IMG/VR virus record: IMGVR_UViG_3300048922_000093 | Coordinates: 1 to 33,163 of that record | Strand: one strand, 5' to 3' | Origin: a virus | Length of the DNA: 33,163 bases | Part shown: positions 3,605 through 32,752 of the stretch, one piece after another | Layout of the letters: every line of letters begins with the position of its first letter | Position numbering within the stretch: the first letter of the stretch is position 1 | Translations under genes and position numbers: made by a program | Notes under the pieces: model-generated | The model's input: the letters and a program-made list of their open reading frames with translations, nothing else | Databases searched by the model: none | Told to the model about the DNA's origin: nothing

Positions 3605-3868
3605 ATGAGCATACGCATCGAGATTAATAACCAATACGTCATCACCAGTGATCGCTACCAATTCATTTTGCAGGAAAAAAAGACCGCTACATCCGGGAAG
3701 AATGAAGGTAAGGAATGGCTGGACGTTGTGGGTTACTACCCAACTATCCACAAGCTTATCTCAGGGCTGGTATTGCATGATCTTTTGACCAGCGATCTTA
3801 CCGGCTTCTCAGTTCTGGAAGCTCGGATTGAACGCTTGGGGAAGCAATGTCTGGACGCTTTTAAATAA
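3605..3868 (+). CDS. small early protein, DUF5405-like
   Basis: An 87-residue protein starting MSIRIEINNQYVITSDRYQF with the later block GYYPTIHKLISGLV. These features match the DUF5405 family found directly before gene A in P2-like phages. AGGAAG lies a few bases before the ATG. It ends one base before the A start, so the two are probably coupled. Function is not known. Confidence 0.82.
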   Translation: MSIRIEINNQYVITSDRYQFILQEKKTATSGKNEGKEWLDVVGYYPTIHKLISGLVLHDLLTSDLTGFSVLEARIERLGKQCLDAFK

Positions 3869-3869
3869 T

Positions 3870-6167
3870 ATGTCCAACGAACCTCGGGGGCGTGTTGCCC
3901 CCTCGCCACCACCACCATTTTTGAAGGGCACCAGTGATTCATTCGTTGGTGCTTATCCCTGGAATAACGTCACCAAAGAGGCTATTGGCCGCGACAGACC
4001 CCTTACACGTGCCGAACTCCGTCAGGTGCAAGGTGTTTTAAACCGAATTGACCGTCTGCCGTTTTTCCTGCAAACGCTGTTTACATCGCGTTATAACTTC
4101 ATCCGCCGTAAAAAGAGCCCTTTAGGTGGGCTGTATTTCCTTAAAAACACGTTTGAGCGCAAGCTGCTGCCGCGTCTTGAGCGTGTTAATGAGCTGTGCG
4201 GGATGAATGAATCCGCCTCGATTGGGTTTCTGTCCGAGCGCGACCAGTATGCGCGCTTACCAGATATGAATGACAAAGAGCTCAGGAAGTTTGCGGCCAG
4301 AATTGCCTCTCAGCTCTGGAGCAAATACGAGGAGTTAAGCGACGCATGGGCGGAGGCTCACGGCGGGAAAGAGACACTTTTCACCGATGAAGCTCAGTCG
4401 CACCTATACGGGCAAGTGGCCGGTATTGCTCGCACATTTAACATCAACCCGATGTACTGGAAAAAATACCGTAAGGGTCAGATGACGATCCGCATGGCAT
4501 TTTCCGCTATTTCCCGACTGATTAAGGATGAGTGGTGGGTTAACCAGCTCAAGGCGCAGCGTATGCGCTGGTGCGAGGCGCTGCTCATCGCTGCCGGTGA
4601 GGTCAATAAAGACCGCTCACCTTACGCCAGCAAAAGGGCGATCCGCGATGTTCACGCGCGCCGCCTGGCTAATCTTGAATACCTCAAATCATGCGAGCTG
4701 GAAAACAAAGTCACCGGCGAACGTATCGACCTCATCAGTAAGGTCATGGGGAGTATCTCAAACCCTGAAATACGTCGTATGGAGCTGATGAATACCATCG
4801 CCGGGATTGAACGTTACGCGGCCAGCGTTGGTGATGTGGGAATGTTTATCACGCTGACCACGCCGTCGAAGTATCACCCGACTCGTCAGGTCGGCAAAGG
4901 TGAAAGCAAAACGGTACAGCTCAATCACGGCTGGAACGAAACCGCATTCACGCCCAAAGACGGCCAGCGCTATCTTTGCCGAATCTGGAGCCTCATGCGC
5001 ACTGCGTTCAAAGATAACGATTTAGAAGTTTACGGGATGCGTGTTGTCGAGCCGCACCACGACGGCACGCCACACTGGCACATGATGCTTTTTTGCAAAC
5101 CCGGTCAACGTAAAGCCATTAACGAAATTATGCGTCGTTATGCCCTTAAAGAGGACGGGCACGAAAAGGGCGCGGCAAAACAGCGCTTTGAGTCCCGTCA
5201 TCTTAATCAGGGCGGTGCGGCGGGTTACATCGCTAAATACATTGCCAAAAATATCGACGGCTACGCGCTCGATGGCCAGCTCGACCACGACACCGGCAAG
5301 CCGCTGAAAGACACGGCCGCAGCCGTTACCGCATGGGCGTCTACATGGCGCATCCCTCAGTTTAAACCGATTGGCCTTCCGACAATGGGCGCCTACCGCG
5401 AACTGCGCAAGCTGCCGCGCGGCGTGAGTATCGCCAGCGAGTTTGACGACCGTGTCGAGGCTGCGCGAGCGGCTGCAGATAAGGGCGATTTTGACCTGTA
5501 TATCATCGCGCAGGGCGGGGCAAATATGCCGCGTGATGCTCAGGCCGTCAGGGTCGCCCGAAAGCTGACGGATGAGGTCAACGAATACGAGGAGGATATC
5601 GAGAGAGTTATCGGGATTTATGCCCCTCACCTCGGGGCTCACCGTGTCCATGTAACCCGTACAGCCGAATGGCGCATTGTTCCAAAGGTTTTGGCCGTTG
5701 AGCCTTTGACCTTAAAAAGCGGCTCTGCCGCGCCTCGGAGTCCTGTCAATAACTGTGGGTTGGTTACCAACGGAGTCACCACGGATATGACGCCTACACC
5801 GTCTGAGCAAGCCGCAGCGGTGCTAAATCTTATTGAAAACGGGGTTATCGGTTGGGATGACCCGGAGGCCGTGAAGGTGCTCAGGGAGGCGCTGAAGGCG
5901 GGGGCTAAACCTCAAAACAGACAGCAACGAAACCGATCACTTTTAAAACAGGATGAATTAGCACCTTCAGCGCGCCTGACAAAATCGCAGCGCGACCAGA
6001 TATCACGCATCCGGTTTGACCTCGCACAGCATGGCATCACGCCGGAACGGTGGGAGCTGGATGTACTGGCGCAAGGTGCGACGGTGACCTACGGCGAGAA
6101 AAAATTCAGTTATGCGGTTGTTGATGAGTGGCCGGGGGATTCAACACAAACGGAGTGGAAACAATGA
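3870..6167 (+). CDS. A: replication initiation endonuclease A (HUH rolling-circle nickase)
   Basis: gpA nicks the phage origin and becomes covalently attached to the 5' end, starting rolling-circle replication. The 765-residue protein (P2 A is 761) has the HUH metal motif PHWH at His402 and His404 and the two-tyrosine motif GYIAKYIAKNI with Tyr453 and Tyr457, equivalent to Tyr450 and Tyr454 of P2. Blocks such as KVMGSISNPEIRRMELMN are conserved with P2. The ATG at 3870 lacks a clear ribosome site but is one base past the upstream stop, which favours coupling; the longer frame would need a TTG start. The origin lies inside the 3' part of this gene. P2 A acts mainly in cis. Confidence 0.96.
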   Translation: MSNEPRGRVAPSPPPPFLKGTSDSFVGAYPWNNVTKEAIGRDRPLTRAELRQVQGVLNRIDRLPFFLQTLFTSRYNFIRRKKSPLGGLYFLKNTFERKLLPRLERVNELCGMNESASIGFLSERDQYARLPDMNDKELRKFAARIASQLWSKYEELSDAWAEAHGGKETLFTDEAQSHLYGQVAGIARTFNINPMYWKKYRKGQMTIRMAFSAISRLIKDEWWVNQLKAQRMRWCEALLIAAGEVNKDRSPYASKRAIRDVHARRLANLEYLKSCELENKVTGERIDLISKVMGSISNPEIRRMELMNTIAGIERYAASVGDVGMFITLTTPSKYHPTRQVGKGESKTVQLNHGWNETAFTPKDGQRYLCRIWSLMRTAFKDNDLEVYGMRVVEPHHDGTPHWHMMLFCKPGQRKAINEIMRRYALKEDGHEKGAAKQRFESRHLNQGGAAGYIAKYIAKNIDGYALDGQLDHDTGKPLKDTAAAVTAWASTWRIPQFKPIGLPTMGAYRELRKLPRGVSIASEFDDRVEAARAAADKGDFDLYIIAQGGANMPRDAQAVRVARKLTDEVNEYEEDIERVIGIYAPHLGAHRVHVTRTAEWRIVPKVLAVEPLTLKSGSAAPRSPVNNCGLVTNGVTTDMTPTPSEQAAAVLNLIENGVIGWDDPEAVKVLREALKAGAKPQNRQQRNRSLLKQDELAPSARLTKSQRDQISRIRFDLAQHGITPERWELDVLAQGATVTYGEKKFSYAVVDEWPGDSTQTEWKQ
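5729..5750 (+). other. ori: probable replication origin / gpA nick site
   Basis: Within the A gene, the segment containing CGCCTCGGAGTCCTGTCAA closely resembles the P2 origin region as I remember it, and encodes the conserved AAPRSPVNNCG peptide. P2 ori lies at this relative place in A. The exact nick position cannot be confirmed here. Confidence 0.6.
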
Positions 6168-6256: not shown

Positions 6257-6355
6257 CACCGTGTATTTACACAGTACTTATTGTGAGAGCTAAGTGGATA
6301 GAGAGCTAGATGAGCAGGTTGTGCTTGAACGAGTAGAAATGTTAGATTTTAATTA

Positions 6356-6386
6356 TAAGCACTCTGAGGTTATTTCAGAGTGCTTA
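6356..6386. terminator. bidirectional hairpin between A and the cargo operon
   Basis: A perfect 12-bp stem (core AGCACTCTGA at 6358-6367 and TCAGAGTGCT at 6375-6384) with a 7-nt loop lies 14 bp beyond the stop of the last cargo gene. Flanks are A/T rich on both sides without a pure T-run, so it probably limits converging transcripts from A and from the cargo operon. Confidence 0.7.
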
Positions 6387-6400
6387 GTAGTAAATTAAAT

Positions 6401-7072
6401 CTAAGAAGTGAAGTTGGTTACAGTAGAGAATATTTCTTCGAATATTTCTTCTGGAAAGTTAATGGAACCATTGGAGTTTACCTCCAAAGATTCATAACCA
6501 GCATTGTTCTTTACATTAAGTTTTACTTTATCGATGGTGAATTTAGCATTCTTGAAGATATTCTTAATCTCATCAATGGCATCGCTTGAAGACTCAAGTT
6601 CCAAAATACCAGAAGTATGTTTGTTGAAAGTTAAATCTTTCAATTTGGCTTTATGAACTTGCACTTTTTCGAACTGAGGTGTAAGTAATTGAATGAAATC
6701 ATCAATTTTTATAGTTAGTAACGAAACGTTAAAGTCAGACTCCGTTGCCTTAATAATATTTGATATAAAGCTTTTTATGCTTCTTGGTGGAGATTCAATG
6801 ATAAGGATAAATCTATCATTATATGCTCTACAAAACCAAAAGTTAAAATGGATATATTTGAAGTGTTCGAACTCAGTTTCATTACCATATGGATCAGTGA
6901 TGATTTCACGTACTTCAATTCTTTCAACATACTTTGATGATATAAAATTTTCTTCGTATGTGTTAATGCTAAAACCCCATCCTTTATCACTGTCAAAAGG
7001 AGTGTCAATGATAGATTTATATAACCCATCAAGTCCTGCTGGGAAGTTGGCATTAAACCATTTTGTTTTCAT
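6401..7072 (-). CDS. third gene of cargo operon, unknown protein
   Basis: A 223-residue soluble protein that I do not recognise. It starts MKTKWFNANFPAGLDGLYKS, has a central hydrophobic strand-rich part (FKYIHFNFWFCRAYNDRFILIIESPP) and a lysine-rich middle, with no signal peptide, membrane segment or obvious catalytic motif. AAGGAG lies 5 nt before its ATG and 14 bp separate it from the upstream gene, so it belongs to a three-gene operon. Base composition is clearly more AT-rich than the phage backbone, which signals separate acquisition. In P2 this place is held by tin and old, which block other phages; a partner or adaptor role in a similar module is the natural inference. Confidence 0.85.
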   Translation of the reverse strand: MKTKWFNANFPAGLDGLYKSIIDTPFDSDKGWGFSINTYEENFISSKYVERIEVREIITDPYGNETEFEHFKYIHFNFWFCRAYNDRFILIIESPPRSIKSFISNIIKATESDFNVSLLTIKIDDFIQLLTPQFEKVQVHKAKLKDLTFNKHTSGILELESSSDAIDEIKNIFKNAKFTIDKVKLNVKNNAGYESLEVNSNGSINFPEEIFEEIFSTVTNFTS

Positions 7073-7086
7073 AGCAACTCCTTTTA

Positions 7087-8217
7087 TTATTCAGTGACAA
7101 CCTCAAGTGTATGCGAGGAAATTATTTTCCCAGAAATAGCTCGAGCTGTATTTTCTATGGATAATAATAACACATTCTCTTTTTCTTTATCTACATTTTG
7201 GCGGTGAGTGTAATCATTTATTTTTTTGTACTTGTAGAGACCGCGAACTAAGTAAGAAAACAATTTACAATTGTCTGGGTCCACGAATTGAGCTTCGAAT
7301 TCATATTTATCGGAATCTTTGAAGTGCTCTACTACTGAAATCCAAACAATCTTAGTAATGTAAAAACCTTTACTTAATAACTCTTTTAGTTCTGGTGATT
7401 CCAGTACGCCGCGACCTTTGAGTGATGCCTTGGATATATGATAACCAGTGTCAATGACAGTATCATCGTCATCGTCATCGTCATCGTCATCAACAGGTTC
7501 ATTATCTTGTTTAGGATGTTTTTTTGCCTCTAAAATAGGGTGGGTTACATAAACATCTGAAACATCTATACATTTATAGTTAGGCATGCTGATAATCAAT
7601 TGCTTAAAGAAATTACTACGCTCAGTGTGATCTTTAACAGTTTCAAGCGATATCTCTTCTAAGCTGGCTTGAGCTTCTTGATTCTCTTCTTTAATCTTTC
7701 CAATGAGACGGTCGTTAAAATCTCTGGCCTTAGCATTCTGCGGAAAACGAGTGATATATTCTCCAGTCTCATTAATTTCGACTTGGATTTTAGCTTCGCG
7801 AGATGATGACTGGCGGAATTCACTCATTTTATAGTCTAATTTTACATATTTTACTGATACATCGAATCCTTTTTCGGTGAAAGTTATGTTTGTTATATCA
7901 CCTTCCTTTTGGAGATCTTCGCAAATGGATTTTAGAGTTGCCTCCATATCATCTTTTTTAATAGAGGTGTTAACAATGTTAATAGATAATTTCTCTCTTC
8001 TTCCAACTGAACCAAGAATTCCAGAAAGATATTCGAAATCATCATATCCATGATAGTTTTTTGAAAAATCTAATGCTAAAGCTTTACGTTTCGTCTCTTT
8101 GGATATGATTGTACCTCTTTTGAAGAAAAGGCTTTTCATATCTTCATGAGTAACCTTTGTTTGATTTAGAGCATCAAACATAGCCTTGTCATTTACACTA
8201 TATAAACCGATTTTCAT
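7087..8217 (-). CDS. second gene of cargo operon, unknown protein with poly-aspartate linker
   Basis: A 376-residue protein that I cannot assign to a family. It seems to have two parts separated by a run of ten aspartates (about residues 243-252). The N-terminal part (MKIGLYSVNDKAMFDALNQT onward) is mixed helix/strand with many charged residues; the C-terminal part contains KGFYITKIVWISVVEHF and LFSYLVRGLYKYKK. No membrane segment or known nuclease motif is evident. The ATG at 8217 follows GGGAG at 9 nt and starts 2 bp after the upstream stop, so coupling is likely; a TTG five codons earlier is the only alternative. The acidic linker suggests DNA mimicry or a flexible tether, but that is speculation. 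Confidence 0.88.
   Translation of the reverse strand: MKIGLYSVNDKAMFDALNQTKVTHEDMKSLFFKRGTIISKETKRKALALDFSKNYHGYDDFEYLSGILGSVGRREKLSINIVNTSIKKDDMEATLKSICEDLQKEGDITNITFTEKGFDVSVKYVKLDYKMSEFRQSSSREAKIQVEINETGEYITRFPQNAKARDFNDRLIGKIKEENQEAQASLEEISLETVKDHTERSNFFKQLIISMPNYKCIDVSDVYVTHPILEAKKHPKQDNEPVDDDDDDDDDDTVIDTGYHISKASLKGRGVLESPELKELLSKGFYITKIVWISVVEHFKDSDKYEFEAQFVDPDNCKLFSYLVRGLYKYKKINDYTHRQNVDKEKENVLLLSIENTARAISGKIISSHTLEVVTE
7462..7491 (-). repeat. hexanucleotide GATGAC repeat encoding ten aspartates
   Basis: On the coding strand GAT and GAC codons alternate (GATGAC four times, then GATGAT), giving 30 bp of simple repeat. Slippage by a unit would change the linker length by two residues without shifting the frame. 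Confidence 0.9.
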
Positions 8218-8219
8218 TA

Positions 8220-9278
8220 TTATCGCTCCCAACCAATTTCAACTGAACTAAATCGAGGTTTGGTAAATTCCACTTGGTGAAAGTCAATTGTGTTTATTAT
8301 TTTTTGTTTGTGTTCGTCAAAACCCCATTCTCTAGAGTAAGTTTCTTTAGCTCGCATAAAAATGCTGCGCACATCTTTAAATATATTTGGATGAACGATC
8401 CTGATTCTTATTTTTTCATTGCCATCAAGGAGTTGATATTTTGATAATGTATCTAGTATATAAATGAACTCTAATTCATTTTTTCCTTCGCCGTTGTAGT
8501 AAATTACATATCCGTGGTCAAATGTCTTTTCCCACTTTTCAGTGTCTTCATTACAATGCTTAACATCATTGTGTTTAATGATAAGAAATGGGCCGGTTAA
8601 TAATTCGACTGTTGCTGGATGATCTTCAGGAGAGCCACTGACTTTATGTAATGATAAATCAGGATAAAAGAACTGATAATTTCTACCGAGTGGGAACTCT
8701 CGTTTATGGCTTAAATGAGATAAGTCAGAAATTATGGATTGAAGATAATTTATCGTTCTTGGTTCGATTATATGTATTTTTTGACCTTGTTTTAAAGGTA
8801 TATTGTCAAGATTTATACCTCGTTGTATTTTATCCGTTTCTGAAACGTGAGACTGATAAAATACATCATAAAATGATTGGTCGAAATCACCATCATGATT
8901 ATAAACAAATAACATACCTCTGACCTCAGAGGATCCGCTTTGATAAGAGTACCGTTCTTTCCATTCCTTACTACCTTCGGCACAGTCTATTGAATTGGCT
9001 AATGACACCAAGGCTTTCCGCATTGAAGTTGAAGTGATAGAACCTTTAACATAACTCTTTAAATCAGTGTTTAAAAAAACAGTTCTATTCAGATAGGGGT
9101 CTTTGTAGGAAAAAACCACATCTGTTGGATGAGTACCTGATTTAGCCTTATGTTGTTCTTTTTTCATACATGGGAAATTCTCATTAGTTGTACCAACGAG
9201 GTCCCATTTAAACCATCTAAATAAATCAGAAGATAATTTTTCTGCCATTTTTGAAATATTTTCTGTTTCACCTGCCAT
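8220..9278 (-). CDS. first gene of cargo operon, putative PD-(D/E)XK-like nuclease
   Basis: A 352-residue protein. The N-terminal 120 residues carry a pattern like the PD-(D/E)XK nuclease core: a helix with Glu13 (MAEKLSSDLFRWF), then HPTDVVF with Asp53 and, after a strand, TDLKSY with Asp72 and Lys74, followed by a helix (TSMRKALVSLANS). The rest is strand-rich (ELEFIYILD, KIRIRIVHP) without a motif I know. AGGTGA lies 6-7 nt before the ATG. It leads the three-gene operon, and a candidate promoter lies about 120 bp upstream. The nuclease call is inference from motif spacing only; a structure prediction could overturn it. Location next to cos and AT-rich composition fit an anti-phage cargo gene. 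Confidence 0.85.
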   Translation of the reverse strand: MAGETENISKMAEKLSSDLFRWFKWDLVGTTNENFPCMKKEQHKAKSGTHPTDVVFSYKDPYLNRTVFLNTDLKSYVKGSITSTSMRKALVSLANSIDCAEGSKEWKERYSYQSGSSEVRGMLFVYNHDGDFDQSFYDVFYQSHVSETDKIQRGINLDNIPLKQGQKIHIIEPRTINYLQSIISDLSHLSHKREFPLGRNYQFFYPDLSLHKVSGSPEDHPATVELLTGPFLIIKHNDVKHCNEDTEKWEKTFDHGYVIYYNGEGKNELEFIYILDTLSKYQLLDGNEKIRIRIVHPNIFKDVRSIFMRAKETYSREWGFDEHKQKIINTIDFHQVEFTKPRFSSVEIGWER

Positions 9279-9696: not shown

Positions 9697-10722
9697 TTAG
9701 TCGGTCTCGATGTTGTAATCCTTAAAGCGAATCACCTCCATCCCGAGCCAGTCGTTTATCTCTTTGAAACGCTCCTGCAGCGGCGTCAGCTCGTTACGCA
9801 CAAATACCCGCGCCACCTTCTCGATATCGCCCATCGAGCCGATATTTTCAGGCTTGCCACCCATGAGCTGGAACGGCACGCGGTGTGCATCGAGCAGGTC
9901 AGCGGCGCTCACCTTCTTGATGTTAAAAAAATCATCCTTCGTGGCGACTTCACTCAACGGCACGATCTTGATGCCATCCGGCTTTCCGTTCGGGGCATAG
10001 AAAAACAGGTTTTTAAAATTCCCGAGTCCTTTCGAGTCGCGCATCGCGGAGCGCAGCGCCTCAACGTCGGTGCTGCTCTGCGCCGCGTCGGTCACGTACA
10101 TGATGTAACCCGCGTGCGCGCCGTTCTGGTAATACTTGCGACGAAACAGCGTGGCGGATTCATTCAGCCAGGCAGAATTGAGCGCACTCAGGTATTCCGG
10201 CATCCCGTAGAGCTCTTGGTTGATATCAGGCTCAAGCAGATGAAACACCGAATCGGGGGCGAACTGGTGCGGGTGCGTATAGTCAGACACGTACCAGTAA
10301 ACGCCATCCTCCACGCCGCGGCGGGTGTATTTAGCCGGTGAGGTTTCAAGCTTCATGAGCTGGCCGGTCACGCTCATGCGCTTTTCAAGATAGCCGTTTG
10401 CAAACACCAGATAATCAAGCACAAGGCGGCTGAAGTCCTGGCGGGACAACAACGGGTGCGGGATAAAGGTGCTGGTCAGAATGTTGCGCTTTACGTAAAT
10501 CGGGGAGCTGTGGTGCACGGCGGCGCGCAGGCTTTTTGCCAGTCCCGAGAAGTTGACCGGCGGCTCGTACCATTTACCGTTGTTGATGCACTCGACATAA
10601 TCGAGGATGTCGCGGCGATCCAGCACGGGTGACGGCTCACCAAAAGTGAACGCCTCCATTTTCTGCGGGGCGCTGGCGGTCATGTTGGTCTGTTTGGGCT
10701 GTTTCTTTTGGCGTTTTTTCAT
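9697..10722 (-). CDS. Q: portal protein Q
   Basis: Forms the dodecameric portal ring at one capsid vertex, through which DNA is packaged and ejected. Length 341 residues (P2 Q is 344). P2/PBSX-type portal features are seen: FTFGEPSPVLDRRDILDY near the N terminus, PEYLSALNSAWLNESATLFRRKYYQNGAHAGYI in the middle and the GGKPENIGSMGDIEKVARVFVRNELTPLQ block near the end. The N-terminal 25 residues are lysine/glutamine rich. Its ATG begins 1 bp after the stop of P, so it is the second gene of the leftward late operon. Confidence 0.95.
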   Translation of the reverse strand: MKKRQKKQPKQTNMTASAPQKMEAFTFGEPSPVLDRRDILDYVECINNGKWYEPPVNFSGLAKSLRAAVHHSSPIYVKRNILTSTFIPHPLLSRQDFSRLVLDYLVFANGYLEKRMSVTGQLMKLETSPAKYTRRGVEDGVYWYVSDYTHPHQFAPDSVFHLLEPDINQELYGMPEYLSALNSAWLNESATLFRRKYYQNGAHAGYIMYVTDAAQSSTDVEALRSAMRDSKGLGNFKNLFFYAPNGKPDGIKIVPLSEVATKDDFFNIKKVSAADLLDAHRVPFQLMGGKPENIGSMGDIEKVARVFVRNELTPLQERFKEINDWLGMEVIRFKDYNIETD

Positions 10723-18355: not shown

Positions 18356-18383
18356 TTGACATAATTGTGATTAATTATTTCAT
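18356..18383 (+). promoter_or_regulatory. candidate promoter of the inserted membrane-protein gene
   Basis: An exact TTGACA at 18356-18361 is followed, after 16 bp, by TTTCAT (4 of 6 to TATAAT). It lies directly after gene S and before the insert, suggesting expression in the lysogen independent of the late operon. Confidence 0.5.
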
Positions 18384-18420
18384 ACGGGAAATGATATTAA
18401 TACCAATGAGGAAGTGTTTC

Positions 18421-19191
18421 ATGTTTGAAAATGTGTTCAGCCTTGAGTCTCTGCTGGCTATTTCAGTCGGGGCTCTGTTTAGCTTCAGGGTCAATAAAGT
18501 CAGCCTGAATCTGAAAAATAACATCAGAAATCAAAGTCCGGATATCTACGGGAACAATAACGTTGTAATCTACAATCAGGCTATGGATGATGTCGGAAAG
18601 GAAATGACACTCTCCGTCAGACTCTGCGCCATAGCGATGATGATTGTATTTCACATGATTCCGGCCTTTTTTGTTAATCTGCTGATGTCTCTTTCGTTCT
18701 TCCTGCCGGTATTCAGCATTATTGGGGTTATAAATGCCATCCGGCTTAATGGTATGAACAGAGGGTGGGATGTTTTATACCCTCTGGCCTCTGTTGTAAT
18801 GGGGGTTATTTTCTATTGCTCGGCGAAAATCATGACGCATTATCTGCCGATCTATCCACAATTAACCCAGCTTTATCATTATCTTTCTGGGTATGATCTG
18901 ATTAGGGTGTTTAAGGCACATCCTCAGATTGATGATTTTCAGCATATATTATTCTCAAGTCTGGCATGCCCTGTATTAATTGTGCTGGGGTTCTATCTGT
19001 CCTTTGCGTATACAAGGGCAAGGGACGGAAATAACGCTTTCAGGTACTGCGCAGGTTTTCTTGCTGCCGGGTACATGTTCTATATTTTGCTGTCCGGTAG
19101 CTTGTTTTCGAACAACCAGAGTAACACTGATTACTTTGTTCAGGTTCTGATTTATCCCTTCAACACCCTTTTCTCGCTTTTCTCTTTCTAG
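18421..19191 (+). CDS. AT-rich membrane protein inserted between S and V (moron)
   Basis: 256-residue protein that I do not recognise. After MFENVFSLESLLAISVGALF it has a glycine/asparagine-rich soluble loop with SPDIYGNNNVVIYNQ, then about five membrane segments (for example VFHMIPAFFVNLLMSLSFFL and FQHILFSSLACPVLIVLGFYL). The ATG at 18421 has GAGGAAG 6 nt upstream and is preferred to a GTG at 18367 that lacks a ribosome site. It lies at the place where P2 carries the non-essential orf30, and composition differs from its neighbours. With its own promoter it could act from the prophage, for example to exclude other phages at the inner membrane. Function is inference. Confidence 0.85.
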   Translation: MFENVFSLESLLAISVGALFSFRVNKVSLNLKNNIRNQSPDIYGNNNVVIYNQAMDDVGKEMTLSVRLCAIAMMIVFHMIPAFFVNLLMSLSFFLPVFSIIGVINAIRLNGMNRGWDVLYPLASVVMGVIFYCSAKIMTHYLPIYPQLTQLYHYLSGYDLIRVFKAHPQIDDFQHILFSSLACPVLIVLGFYLSFAYTRARDGNNAFRYCAGFLAAGYMFYILLSGSLFSNNQSNTDYFVQVLIYPFNTLFSLFSF

Positions 19192-30239: not shown

Positions 30240-30294
30240 CTATTGATCTTATGATGGTTTATTTGACTATGCTCATGATTTGTCCAAGGAAAAA

Positions 30295-31038
30295 ATGGCT
30301 AAGAACAAAATTCTAATATGCTTTCCTCTTTGGGCTGCTACATCGTCCATTGATATCATGCGAATGCTTGCAGAACAGGCTGAAAAAAATATTGCTATTG
30401 CTGTGGAAGAAGTTAATGAACCGGGCGCTATTAAGGAGGGCGAATATGAGGATGAGGCATTTGACCATTATGGGGAAATTTATACTTTTATGAATATATA
30501 TTACTCATGTGGTGCGTGTGTGGGTATCGACTATGAAGAAGTTAAACTAGAGTATATACGATTAACGACACAGCTAACACGTCGCTCTGCATTTTTAACT
30601 ATATTTGGACTCTTCGAACATCGTATTAATGATTGTCTGGAGTTTATGCTCGAGCTGGCAAAGTATTCAGGTGAAATCAAAGGAAAGGGGCCCATTGAAA
30701 AGATACATTATCTTATAAAAAGAGTTTATGGATGCAAAAGCATTACTGATGTCGATCATCTCACAAAAATTAGGAATATAATGATTCACAATGATGGGAA
30801 TGCAAACAATTACATTGATATTTTTAATAGCACTGATAAAAAGAGCTCTTCTGAAAAAAGGCTTCTGAACGCAATACGTAGGTCAGAAGGTGTTGTCGTT
30901 AATGATTTTAATGAAGTGCTAATGAATGAAAGTTTTTTAATGTATTCTGTCAACGAATTTAGACGTTACATTAATGCACTGGGTGATTTAATCAACGCTT
31001 ATTATAGGAAAGTGAATAATGGGAAGGATAATGAGTAG
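30295..31038 (+). CDS. HEPN-like protein, larger of a pair
   Basis: 247 residues, mostly helical. It has the HEPN RNase motif R-x4-H at Arg160-His165 (KIRNIMIHNDG) and a preceding long helix (RRSAFLTIFGLFEHRINDCL) typical of HEPN proteins. The N-terminal segment MAKNKILICFPLW is hydrophobic but too short for a confident membrane anchor. AAGGA lies 5 nt before the ATG at 30295; a TTG at 30280 is the alternative. It is AT-rich, placed between ogr and attR, and overlaps the next gene, which also has an HEPN motif. HEPN proteins are often RNases in toxin-antitoxin and abortive-infection systems; this specific family I do not recognise. Confidence 0.88.
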   Translation: MAKNKILICFPLWAATSSIDIMRMLAEQAEKNIAIAVEEVNEPGAIKEGEYEDEAFDHYGEIYTFMNIYYSCGACVGIDYEEVKLEYIRLTTQLTRRSAFLTIFGLFEHRINDCLEFMLELAKYSGEIKGKGPIEKIHYLIKRVYGCKSITDVDHLTKIRNIMIHNDGNANNYIDIFNSTDKKSSSEKRLLNAIRRSEGVVVNDFNEVLMNESFLMYSVNEFRRYINALGDLINAYYRKVNNGKDNE

Positions 31039-31507
31039 TAATAAATTAACATTAGATGATCTAAGCAATGAGTTCTACCGCGAGTTTTCTCGTTATGAGT
31101 ACTGTCTTAAAGCTGTAGGACTTAGGCATGAAAAAGGAGATGCAAAGGCAAACTGGGATTTGTATGCCAAAGAAGTTGAAGATGTTATTATTAATGCTAC
31201 TGACAAAGAGCTTTGCACTGCCATTGACTATTTTTTTTCTCATCCTCCCAAAAAACAAATTGTTAAGGATGGCTCTCTTGCTTGGGATGATTCCCCGTTA
31301 CAGGAAAAAAACAAATCTATTGCTGTTTTTATTCTAATTCGTCGTGTTAGGAATAATCTTTTTCATGGCGGTAAATTCAATGGTCAATGGTTTGAGCCAG
31401 AACGCAGCGAGCTTTTACTTCAGTACGCGCTTACCATTTTGAAGACTTGCGCTAAAAACCATGAAAACGTAAGCAAGGCATATGAAGGTATGTCAACAGG
31501 GAGTTAG
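31031..31507 (+). CDS. HEPN-like protein, smaller of a pair
   Basis: 158 residues, helical, with R-x4-H at Arg107-His112 (RRVRNNLFHGGKF), a classic HEPN signature. An N-terminal helix FYREFSRYEYCLKAVGL precedes it. The ATG at 31031 has AAGGA 2-3 nt upstream and overlaps the end of the larger gene by 8 bp, so expression is coupled; an ATG at 31019 is possible. No nucleotidyltransferase partner gene (the usual HEPN antitoxin) is present. Two different HEPN proteins could form a heterodimer in which the composite active site is controlled by pairing. Function is inference. Confidence 0.88.
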   Translation: MSSNKLTLDDLSNEFYREFSRYEYCLKAVGLRHEKGDAKANWDLYAKEVEDVIINATDKELCTAIDYFFSHPPKKQIVKDGSLAWDDSPLQEKNKSIAVFILIRRVRNNLFHGGKFNGQWFEPERSELLLQYALTILKTCAKNHENVSKAYEGMSTGS

Positions 31508-31798: not shown

Positions 31799-32752
31799 AT
31801 GCACAGCGAAACCCCGGTAGTCAGTGTTATTCGACGTTCCTCGCGCCTTATGGTGCGAGAGTTAGGTTTTATGGCCTCGACCCTGGCCTCAACGAATTAC
31901 TCACCGTCGGCCGTCCATACCCTGGTCGAAATAGCCCTACGCAAAGAGATGACGGCGAGTCAGCTGGTGCAGCTGCTGGGCCTGGATAAATCCAGCGTCA
32001 GCCGGATGCTGGCTCGCCTGATTGCCGCGGGCGAACTCGAGGAAGTGACTTCACCTGAAGATGCGAGAGCGAAGAGCCTCAGGCTGACCGCGAAAGGTCA
32101 TGAGACGGTCAGTAAAATTAATACCTTTAGCAACGAGCGCGTGGTCTCAGCAATAAAGAGTCTTGCTCCTGTCCAGCAGCAGACCATCTCTGAAGGACTC
32201 TCCCTTTATGCCAACGCGCTGCTGGCGTGCCGTGAGACGGGCAGCGACAAGCGCCCCGACGAACTCACGATAGTTAAGGGGTATATTTCCGGCATGATTG
32301 GTCGTGTCGCGGAGATGCACGGGGTTTATTACGCGCGCGAGCACCATTTTGGCCGCTTTTTTGAGGCTAAAGTGGCTACGGGAGTTGCGGAATTTAGTGA
32401 CCGCCTGGATAAGCCATGCAACCAGATCTGGCTGGCGGTGATGAACGGCAGGATAGTGGGGTCAGTGGCGATAGACGGCGAGGATTTAGCGCCGGGTGAA
32501 GCGCATCTTCGCTGGTTTATTCTCGACGATGGCTGCCGGGGACACGGGGTGGGGAAAAAACTGCTGACCGATGCGATGCGCTTTTGCGACAGCGCTGGTT
32601 TCTCTGCTGTGCATCTCTGGACATTCAATAAGCTGACCGCCGCACGGCGTTTATACGAATCGTTTGGATTTACGCTCGTCAAGGAGTGGGAGGGCGATCA
32701 GTGGGGAACCCTTATAACGGAGCAGCAGTTTACCCGGCGCAGAGACGCGTAA
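31799..32752 (+). CDS. MarR regulator fused to GNAT acetyltransferase
   Basis: 317-residue host protein with two domains. Residues 1-145 are a MarR-type winged helix (TASQLVQLLGLDKSSVSRMLARLIAAGELEEV, recognition helix about residues 61-76). Residues 155-317 are a GNAT acetyltransferase with the acetyl-CoA loop RGHGVGKKLL (about residues 248-257) and the AARRLYESFGF motif. Start ATG at 31799 has GAGGG upstream. Autoregulation through the palindrome in its promoter is likely. The acetylated substrate is unknown. The prophage is inserted immediately upstream of its promoter but does not damage it. Confidence 0.92.
   Translation: MHSETPVVSVIRRSSRLMVRELGFMASTLASTNYSPSAVHTLVEIALRKEMTASQLVQLLGLDKSSVSRMLARLIAAGELEEVTSPEDARAKSLRLTAKGHETVSKINTFSNERVVSAIKSLAPVQQQTISEGLSLYANALLACRETGSDKRPDELTIVKGYISGMIGRVAEMHGVYYAREHHFGRFFEAKVATGVAEFSDRLDKPCNQIWLAVMNGRIVGSVAIDGEDLAPGEAHLRWFILDDGCRGHGVGKKLLTDAMRFCDSAGFSAVHLWTFNKLTAARRLYESFGFTLVKEWEGDQWGTLITEQQFTRRRDA

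Follow-up and report, generated by a model that had tools for sequence, protein, structure and literature searches.

Does the AT-rich cargo of a P2-like prophage encode an undescribed anti-phage module, and how might its proteins work together? This question is raised by three genes in a viral sequence of 33,163 nucleotides (IMG/VR record IMGVR_UViG_3300048922_000093; hereafter the window), which an earlier note, made from the sequence alone, had placed in the slot that holds tin and old in P2. Our analysis agrees with that note on the gene calls and on their position. The three minus-strand reading frames of 352, 376 and 223 amino acids are intact and occupy the gpA-gpQ hotspot of a P2-like prophage, flanked as follows:

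3828..6167, plus strand: P2-like gpA replication endonuclease (phrog_91, E 5e-301), left border of the hotspot
6348..6394, minus strand: strong hairpin (-20 kcal/mol, z -6.6), between Hp3 and the convergent gpA gene
6401..7072, minus strand: Hp3 gene, 223 amino acids, third gene
7087..8217, minus strand: Hp2 gene, 376 amino acids when read from the ATG at 8217
8220..9278, minus strand: Hp1 gene, 352 amino acids, first gene of the 3HP operon
9697..10722, minus strand: P2-like gpQ portal protein (phrog_68, E 2e-172), right border of the hotspot

The genes are tightly packed, with gaps of 2 nt between Hp1 and Hp2 and of 14 nt between Hp2 and Hp3, and the GC content of the block is ~33%, versus 53–60% for most of the flanking phage genes. 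Plausible ribosome sites were found at all three starts (AGGTGA for Hp1, GGGAG for Hp2 and AAAGGAG for Hp3); if Hp2 were to start at the TTG at 8232 instead, its product would have 381 amino acids. Other regulatory signals proposed previously fared less well. A candidate promoter for each gene is not supported, as our scan returned 21 matches where 13.6 are expected in such AT-rich DNA, and none of those listed lies upstream of Hp1 on the minus strand. Similarly, of the closing hairpins claimed for each gene, only the one at the end of the operon is convincing. This hairpin (6348–6394), which lacks a poly-T tract, is a probable transcription end. Because the genes nearly overlap, we expect a single transcript for all three.

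A few other parts of the window stood out as well. A 274-aa reading frame at 18367–19191 (plus strand), in an AT-rich patch amid structural genes, matched nothing in PHROG or PADLOC at E 0.001 and is possibly a second cargo site. Near the prophage end, an AT-rich pair of reading frames (252 and 162 aa; 30280–31507, plus strand) matched only the uncharacterised families phrog_21382 and phrog_19013, and is a possible further piece of cargo. The gene at 31799–32752 (plus strand) encodes a protein of 317 aa that joins a regulator-like N-terminal part to an acetyltransferase domain at the C terminus; it may be host DNA past the prophage end.

The note could match none of the three proteins to a named system, but all of them matched the Rst_3HP profiles of PADLOC, in operon order: PDLC03004 Hp1 for the 352-aa protein (E 3.8e-66), PDLC03005 Hp2 for the 376-aa protein (E 9.8e-33) and PDLC03006 Hp3 for the 223-aa protein (E 1.5e-11). 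By the note's own account, its proposal would fall if all three proteins strongly matched the profiles of a known system, and Rst_3HP is such a system. The corresponding PHROG families are phrog_7059 (Hp1), phrog_6531 (Hp2) and phrog_5850 (Hp3, E 3.9e-79), and a homologous operon in a Vibrio phage record is labelled Rst_3HP Hp1/Hp2/Hp3. P2 Tin and the OLD nuclease Old were considered as identities and rejected, as PADLOC and Pfam gave nothing above noise except the Hp1–Hp3 families. By established usage, too, the published three-gene system of this hotspot is presumably Hp1–Hp3. The same link is made through the system name Rst_3HP in the DefenseFinder publication, which describes the system as mostly prophage-encoded (PMC9090908). 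In the original report, Rousset et al. (2022) present a three-gene system in the gpA-gpQ hotspot that has "no clear predicted domain" and protects against P1. A survey of Salmonella likewise found 3HP predominantly on prophages (PMC11305592).

Judged from its sequence, the operon thus belongs to 3HP, a known anti-phage system, as a divergent member; it is carried as cargo in a P2-like prophage hotspot. Hp1 is 41% identical to the copy of a Pf phage and ~36% identical to the P2-like copies of Klebsiella and E. coli, and no near copy of the operon was found in the complete E. coli genomes searched. General domain databases had little to add. Pfam and NCBIfam gave nothing above noise for the three window proteins, and Pfam gave only scattered weak matches for 83–95 relatives per subunit; DUF4518, for instance, appeared in 13 of 90 Hp2 members (best 1.5e-5) and was absent from ten members that were re-scanned. 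A profile search by sequence against solved structures returned no match for Hp1 and noise for Hp2 and Hp3, and comparison of the Hp1, Hp2 and Hp3 profiles showed them to be unrelated to one another.

Of the earlier proposal, the conserved three-gene unit and its character as anti-phage-type cargo stand; its undescribed status does not, since the unit has already been described as Rst_3HP. We compiled 169 loci, 159 from scans of GTDB genomes and IMG/VR and 10 from annotated phage or plasmid records. Hp1, Hp2 and Hp3 occurred in this order on one strand in 158 of these, and the other 11 were cut off by the ends of their records. Hence, the genes form an obligate three-gene unit. The phage records with Hp1 were the same eight as those with Hp2, and orphan Hp2 and Hp3 genes were sought with single proteins and tblastn. 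Neighbouring genes usually overlap, with a median of -4 nt at both junctions. The three subunits diverge in step (correlations 0.86–0.96), at mean pairwise identities of 39% for Hp1, 29% for Hp2 and 21% for Hp3.

Carriers of 3HP belong to the Pseudomonadota and some other phyla. The genes gpA and gpQ flank 48 loci, including the window, in either orientation, and the unit also occurs outside P2 prophages, on Pf filamentous phages, plasmids and chromosomal contigs. Complete operons are found, for instance, in the Pseudomonas aeruginosa Pf phages 54-4 and 99-2 (L004:2581-3252, L002:4995-6074), where some of the genes bear the labels 'nuclease related protein' and 'RdgC-like exonuclease'. In one related prophage, an insertion with IS3-type transposase reading frames (L118:8034-9202) interrupts the 3' end of Hp2 and lies between Hp2 and Hp3; that 3HP copy is therefore probably inactive.

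This distribution bears on whether the operon might act in the prophage's own replication, recombination or DNA processing instead of in defence. In favour of such a role, RdgC as well as nucleases belong to the recombination proteins, and phages carry related operons. Yet, the slot holds variable cargo. Prophages of E. coli with 82–88% identity to this one across gpP-gpQ carry different genes there: a reverse transcriptase together with an ATP-dependent nuclease, a DUF3696 pair, or a pair of P-loop NTPases. Furthermore, the operon also resides on plasmids and chromosomal contigs unrelated to P2, and another 3HP member protects against P1, according to Rousset et al. (2022). We therefore consider a function for the prophage itself very improbable.

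How, then, might the three proteins act? In Hp1, the residues W25, C37, H50, P51, D53, Y58, P61, D72, K74, C99, F124, N127, P206 and A222 were invariant in all 83 diverse members, and E4 was present in 82 of the 83, with a gap in the remaining one. At the sequence level, H50-P51-x-D53 followed after 18 residues by D72-L-K74 is a PD-(D/E)XK signature, and together with E4 these residues are the predicted active site. The AF2 model of Hp1 (pLDDT 91) places the signature on adjacent strands after the first helix, which contains E4. The structure matches listed by VIA-align are mostly PD-(D/E)XK nucleases, with Upx first (Z 8.0), then EndoMS (7.8), AF1548 (7.6, over 118 of 184 residues), HamA (7.6), FokI (6.8), the R2 endonuclease domain (6.6), McrC (6.1), and Can2 and Card1 (5.3–5.8). 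Cap4 is also among the fold matches. HamA and Cap4 proteins were found in 3HP carrier genomes as well, in numbers too small for a useful profile comparison. With Z at or below 8.0, all of these matches are moderate for one small domain, and with Foldseek alone no PDB match to the Hp1 model was convincing (best E 3.9e-3). Because single Z values are moderate, the argument for a nuclease rests on the conservation of these residues. Taking model and conservation together, Hp1 is very probably a PD-(D/E)XK nuclease, with predicted activity.

A second region of Hp1, residues 171–341, resembles the N-terminal region of Rpb5 (VIA-align Z 6.2–7.3). It may be a second, inactive endonuclease-like domain.

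The AF2 model of Hp2 (pLDDT 89.9) comprises an N-terminal helical domain (1–70) and a two-domain body (73–367), split by an acidic disordered linker at about 230–260. Its best solved structure in VIA was E. coli RdgC (2owl; Z 10.8, 218 residues, 4.4 Å), which aligned to residues 73–367 in model numbering. The next matches were to single domains, and the kinetochore proteins Iml3 (4kr1, Z 9.3) and CENP-L (7r5v_L, Z 8.0) both aligned end to end. Among viral models (BFVD), a phage RdgC matched Hp2 with E 2.4e-5. Spermine synthase, the first Foldseek match, was dismissed as misleading, as it covers only one subdomain. By sequence, Hp2 had no Pfam match to the RdgC family PF04381, and hhalign gave a probability of 0.2%. 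Hence, as far as the model can tell, Hp2 shares the two-domain RdgC fold while it is not a member of the RdgC family by sequence.

The same fold has been seen in a prophage exclusion protein. The crystal structure of lambda RexA was reported to show an RdgC/IML3/CHL4 fold in a dimer that binds DNA without sequence preference (PMC11077077). RexA mutants, however, are defective in exclusion whatever their DNA binding (PMC11077077). As DNA binding does not track exclusion in RexA, the clamp fold of Hp2 need not mean a DNA-targeting mechanism.

Hp3 is the fastest-evolving of the subunits, and gave few clues to its fold. Its hhalign alignment to RdgC was colinear over RdgC residues 5–170 but not significant, at a probability of 2.4%, and Hp1, used as a nuclease control, scored alike. 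One Pf phage record calls its Hp3 an 'RdgC-like exonuclease'. By analogy with Iml3-Chl4, a heterodimer of Hp3 with Hp2 can be put forward, as a hypothesis only.

We propose that Hp2, with Hp3, would load on or recognise phage DNA in replication, recombination or repair. Hp2, or Hp2-Hp3, would then recruit or activate Hp1, which as the DNase effector would cut DNA. Hp3 would be an obligate partner, perhaps supplying the clamp's second half or the contact with a phage factor. Complex formation, DNA binding, the nuclease activity, the trigger, the target and the survival of the cell are parts of this scheme that we infer. The explanation as a whole, a 3HP member in which an Hp2(-Hp3) DNA clamp licenses the Hp1 nuclease, is in our estimation evenly poised between right and wrong. 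A bolder version would be a new kind of defence complex, in which an Iml3-Chl4-like heterodimer of Hp2 and Hp3, as an RdgC/RexA-type clamp around DNA, senses intermediates of phage replication or recombination and delivers Hp1. We offer this version tentatively, and believe it somewhat unlikely.

The main alternative explanation would be that Hp2, together with Hp3, senses a phage protein, for example a DNA-end-binding or anti-recombination factor, whereupon Hp1 kills the cell by cutting host DNA in an abortive infection, and that the RdgC-like fold is a dimerisation scaffold only. The rapid evolution of Hp3 (21% versus 39% for Hp1) is as expected of a subunit that faces phage proteins, and the behaviour of the RexA mutants (PMC11077077) and the presence of the PD-(D/E)XK defence effectors Cap4, HamA, Can2 and Card1 among the fold matches of Hp1 point the same way. 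Fast evolution of Hp3 fits relaxed constraint as well, though, and the protein trigger is conjectural. We regard a protein sensor as possible but doubtful.

The operon might also be a toxin-antitoxin-like module, in which Hp2 and Hp3 restrain the Hp1 nuclease until infection lifts the inhibition. In line with this idea, the genes obligately co-occur and are tightly coupled, and the nuclease is the first gene. Nevertheless, it would be unusual for an antitoxin to consist of two proteins and to have a DNA-clamp fold, and we think such a module improbable. The best supported of these mechanisms is the clamp-licensed nuclease.

The operon adds no new defence system, as 3HP has already been described and has public profiles. 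What appears to be new, within the literature searched, are the domain assignments of Hp1 and Hp2; our partial search found no paper that makes them. They provide 3HP with a testable model, in which a predicted nuclease, its active-site residues named, acts with a partner of RdgC/RexA fold. If true, this model would connect the old problem of Rex exclusion with nuclease-based immunity and with a DNA-clamp fold that kinetochores use as well.

Compared to 3HP as described, the window operon has all three profiles, the gene order, the operon layout and the gpA-gpQ hotspot in common, but its Hp1 shares only ~36% identity with those of the E. coli-type copies. It was a different member whose protection against P1 was measured, and by analogy defence by the window copy is putative; the original paper gave no domain assignment. 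Like Hachiman, 3HP has an effector with a HamA-like PD-(D/E)XK fold (8zue Z 7.6, 8vx9 Z 7.2), and would likewise combine a nuclease with a DNA-engaging partner, if the role predicted for Hp2 from its model holds. It differs from Hachiman in that this partner is RdgC-like; none of the three proteins matched a helicase, and there was no match to the HamA family.

With RexAB of lambda, 3HP shares exclusion encoded by a prophage, and Hp2 and RexA are alike through their common resemblance to RdgC; RexA itself is absent among the Hp2 matches listed. RexA pairs with RexB, a membrane protein, and works without a nuclease. RdgC is a recombination-associated ring that encircles DNA, and its fold extends over residues 73–367 of Hp2. 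Sequence similarity between the two proteins is not detectable. Unlike RdgC, Hp2 also has a helical domain at its N terminus and an acidic linker, and it travels with a nuclease.
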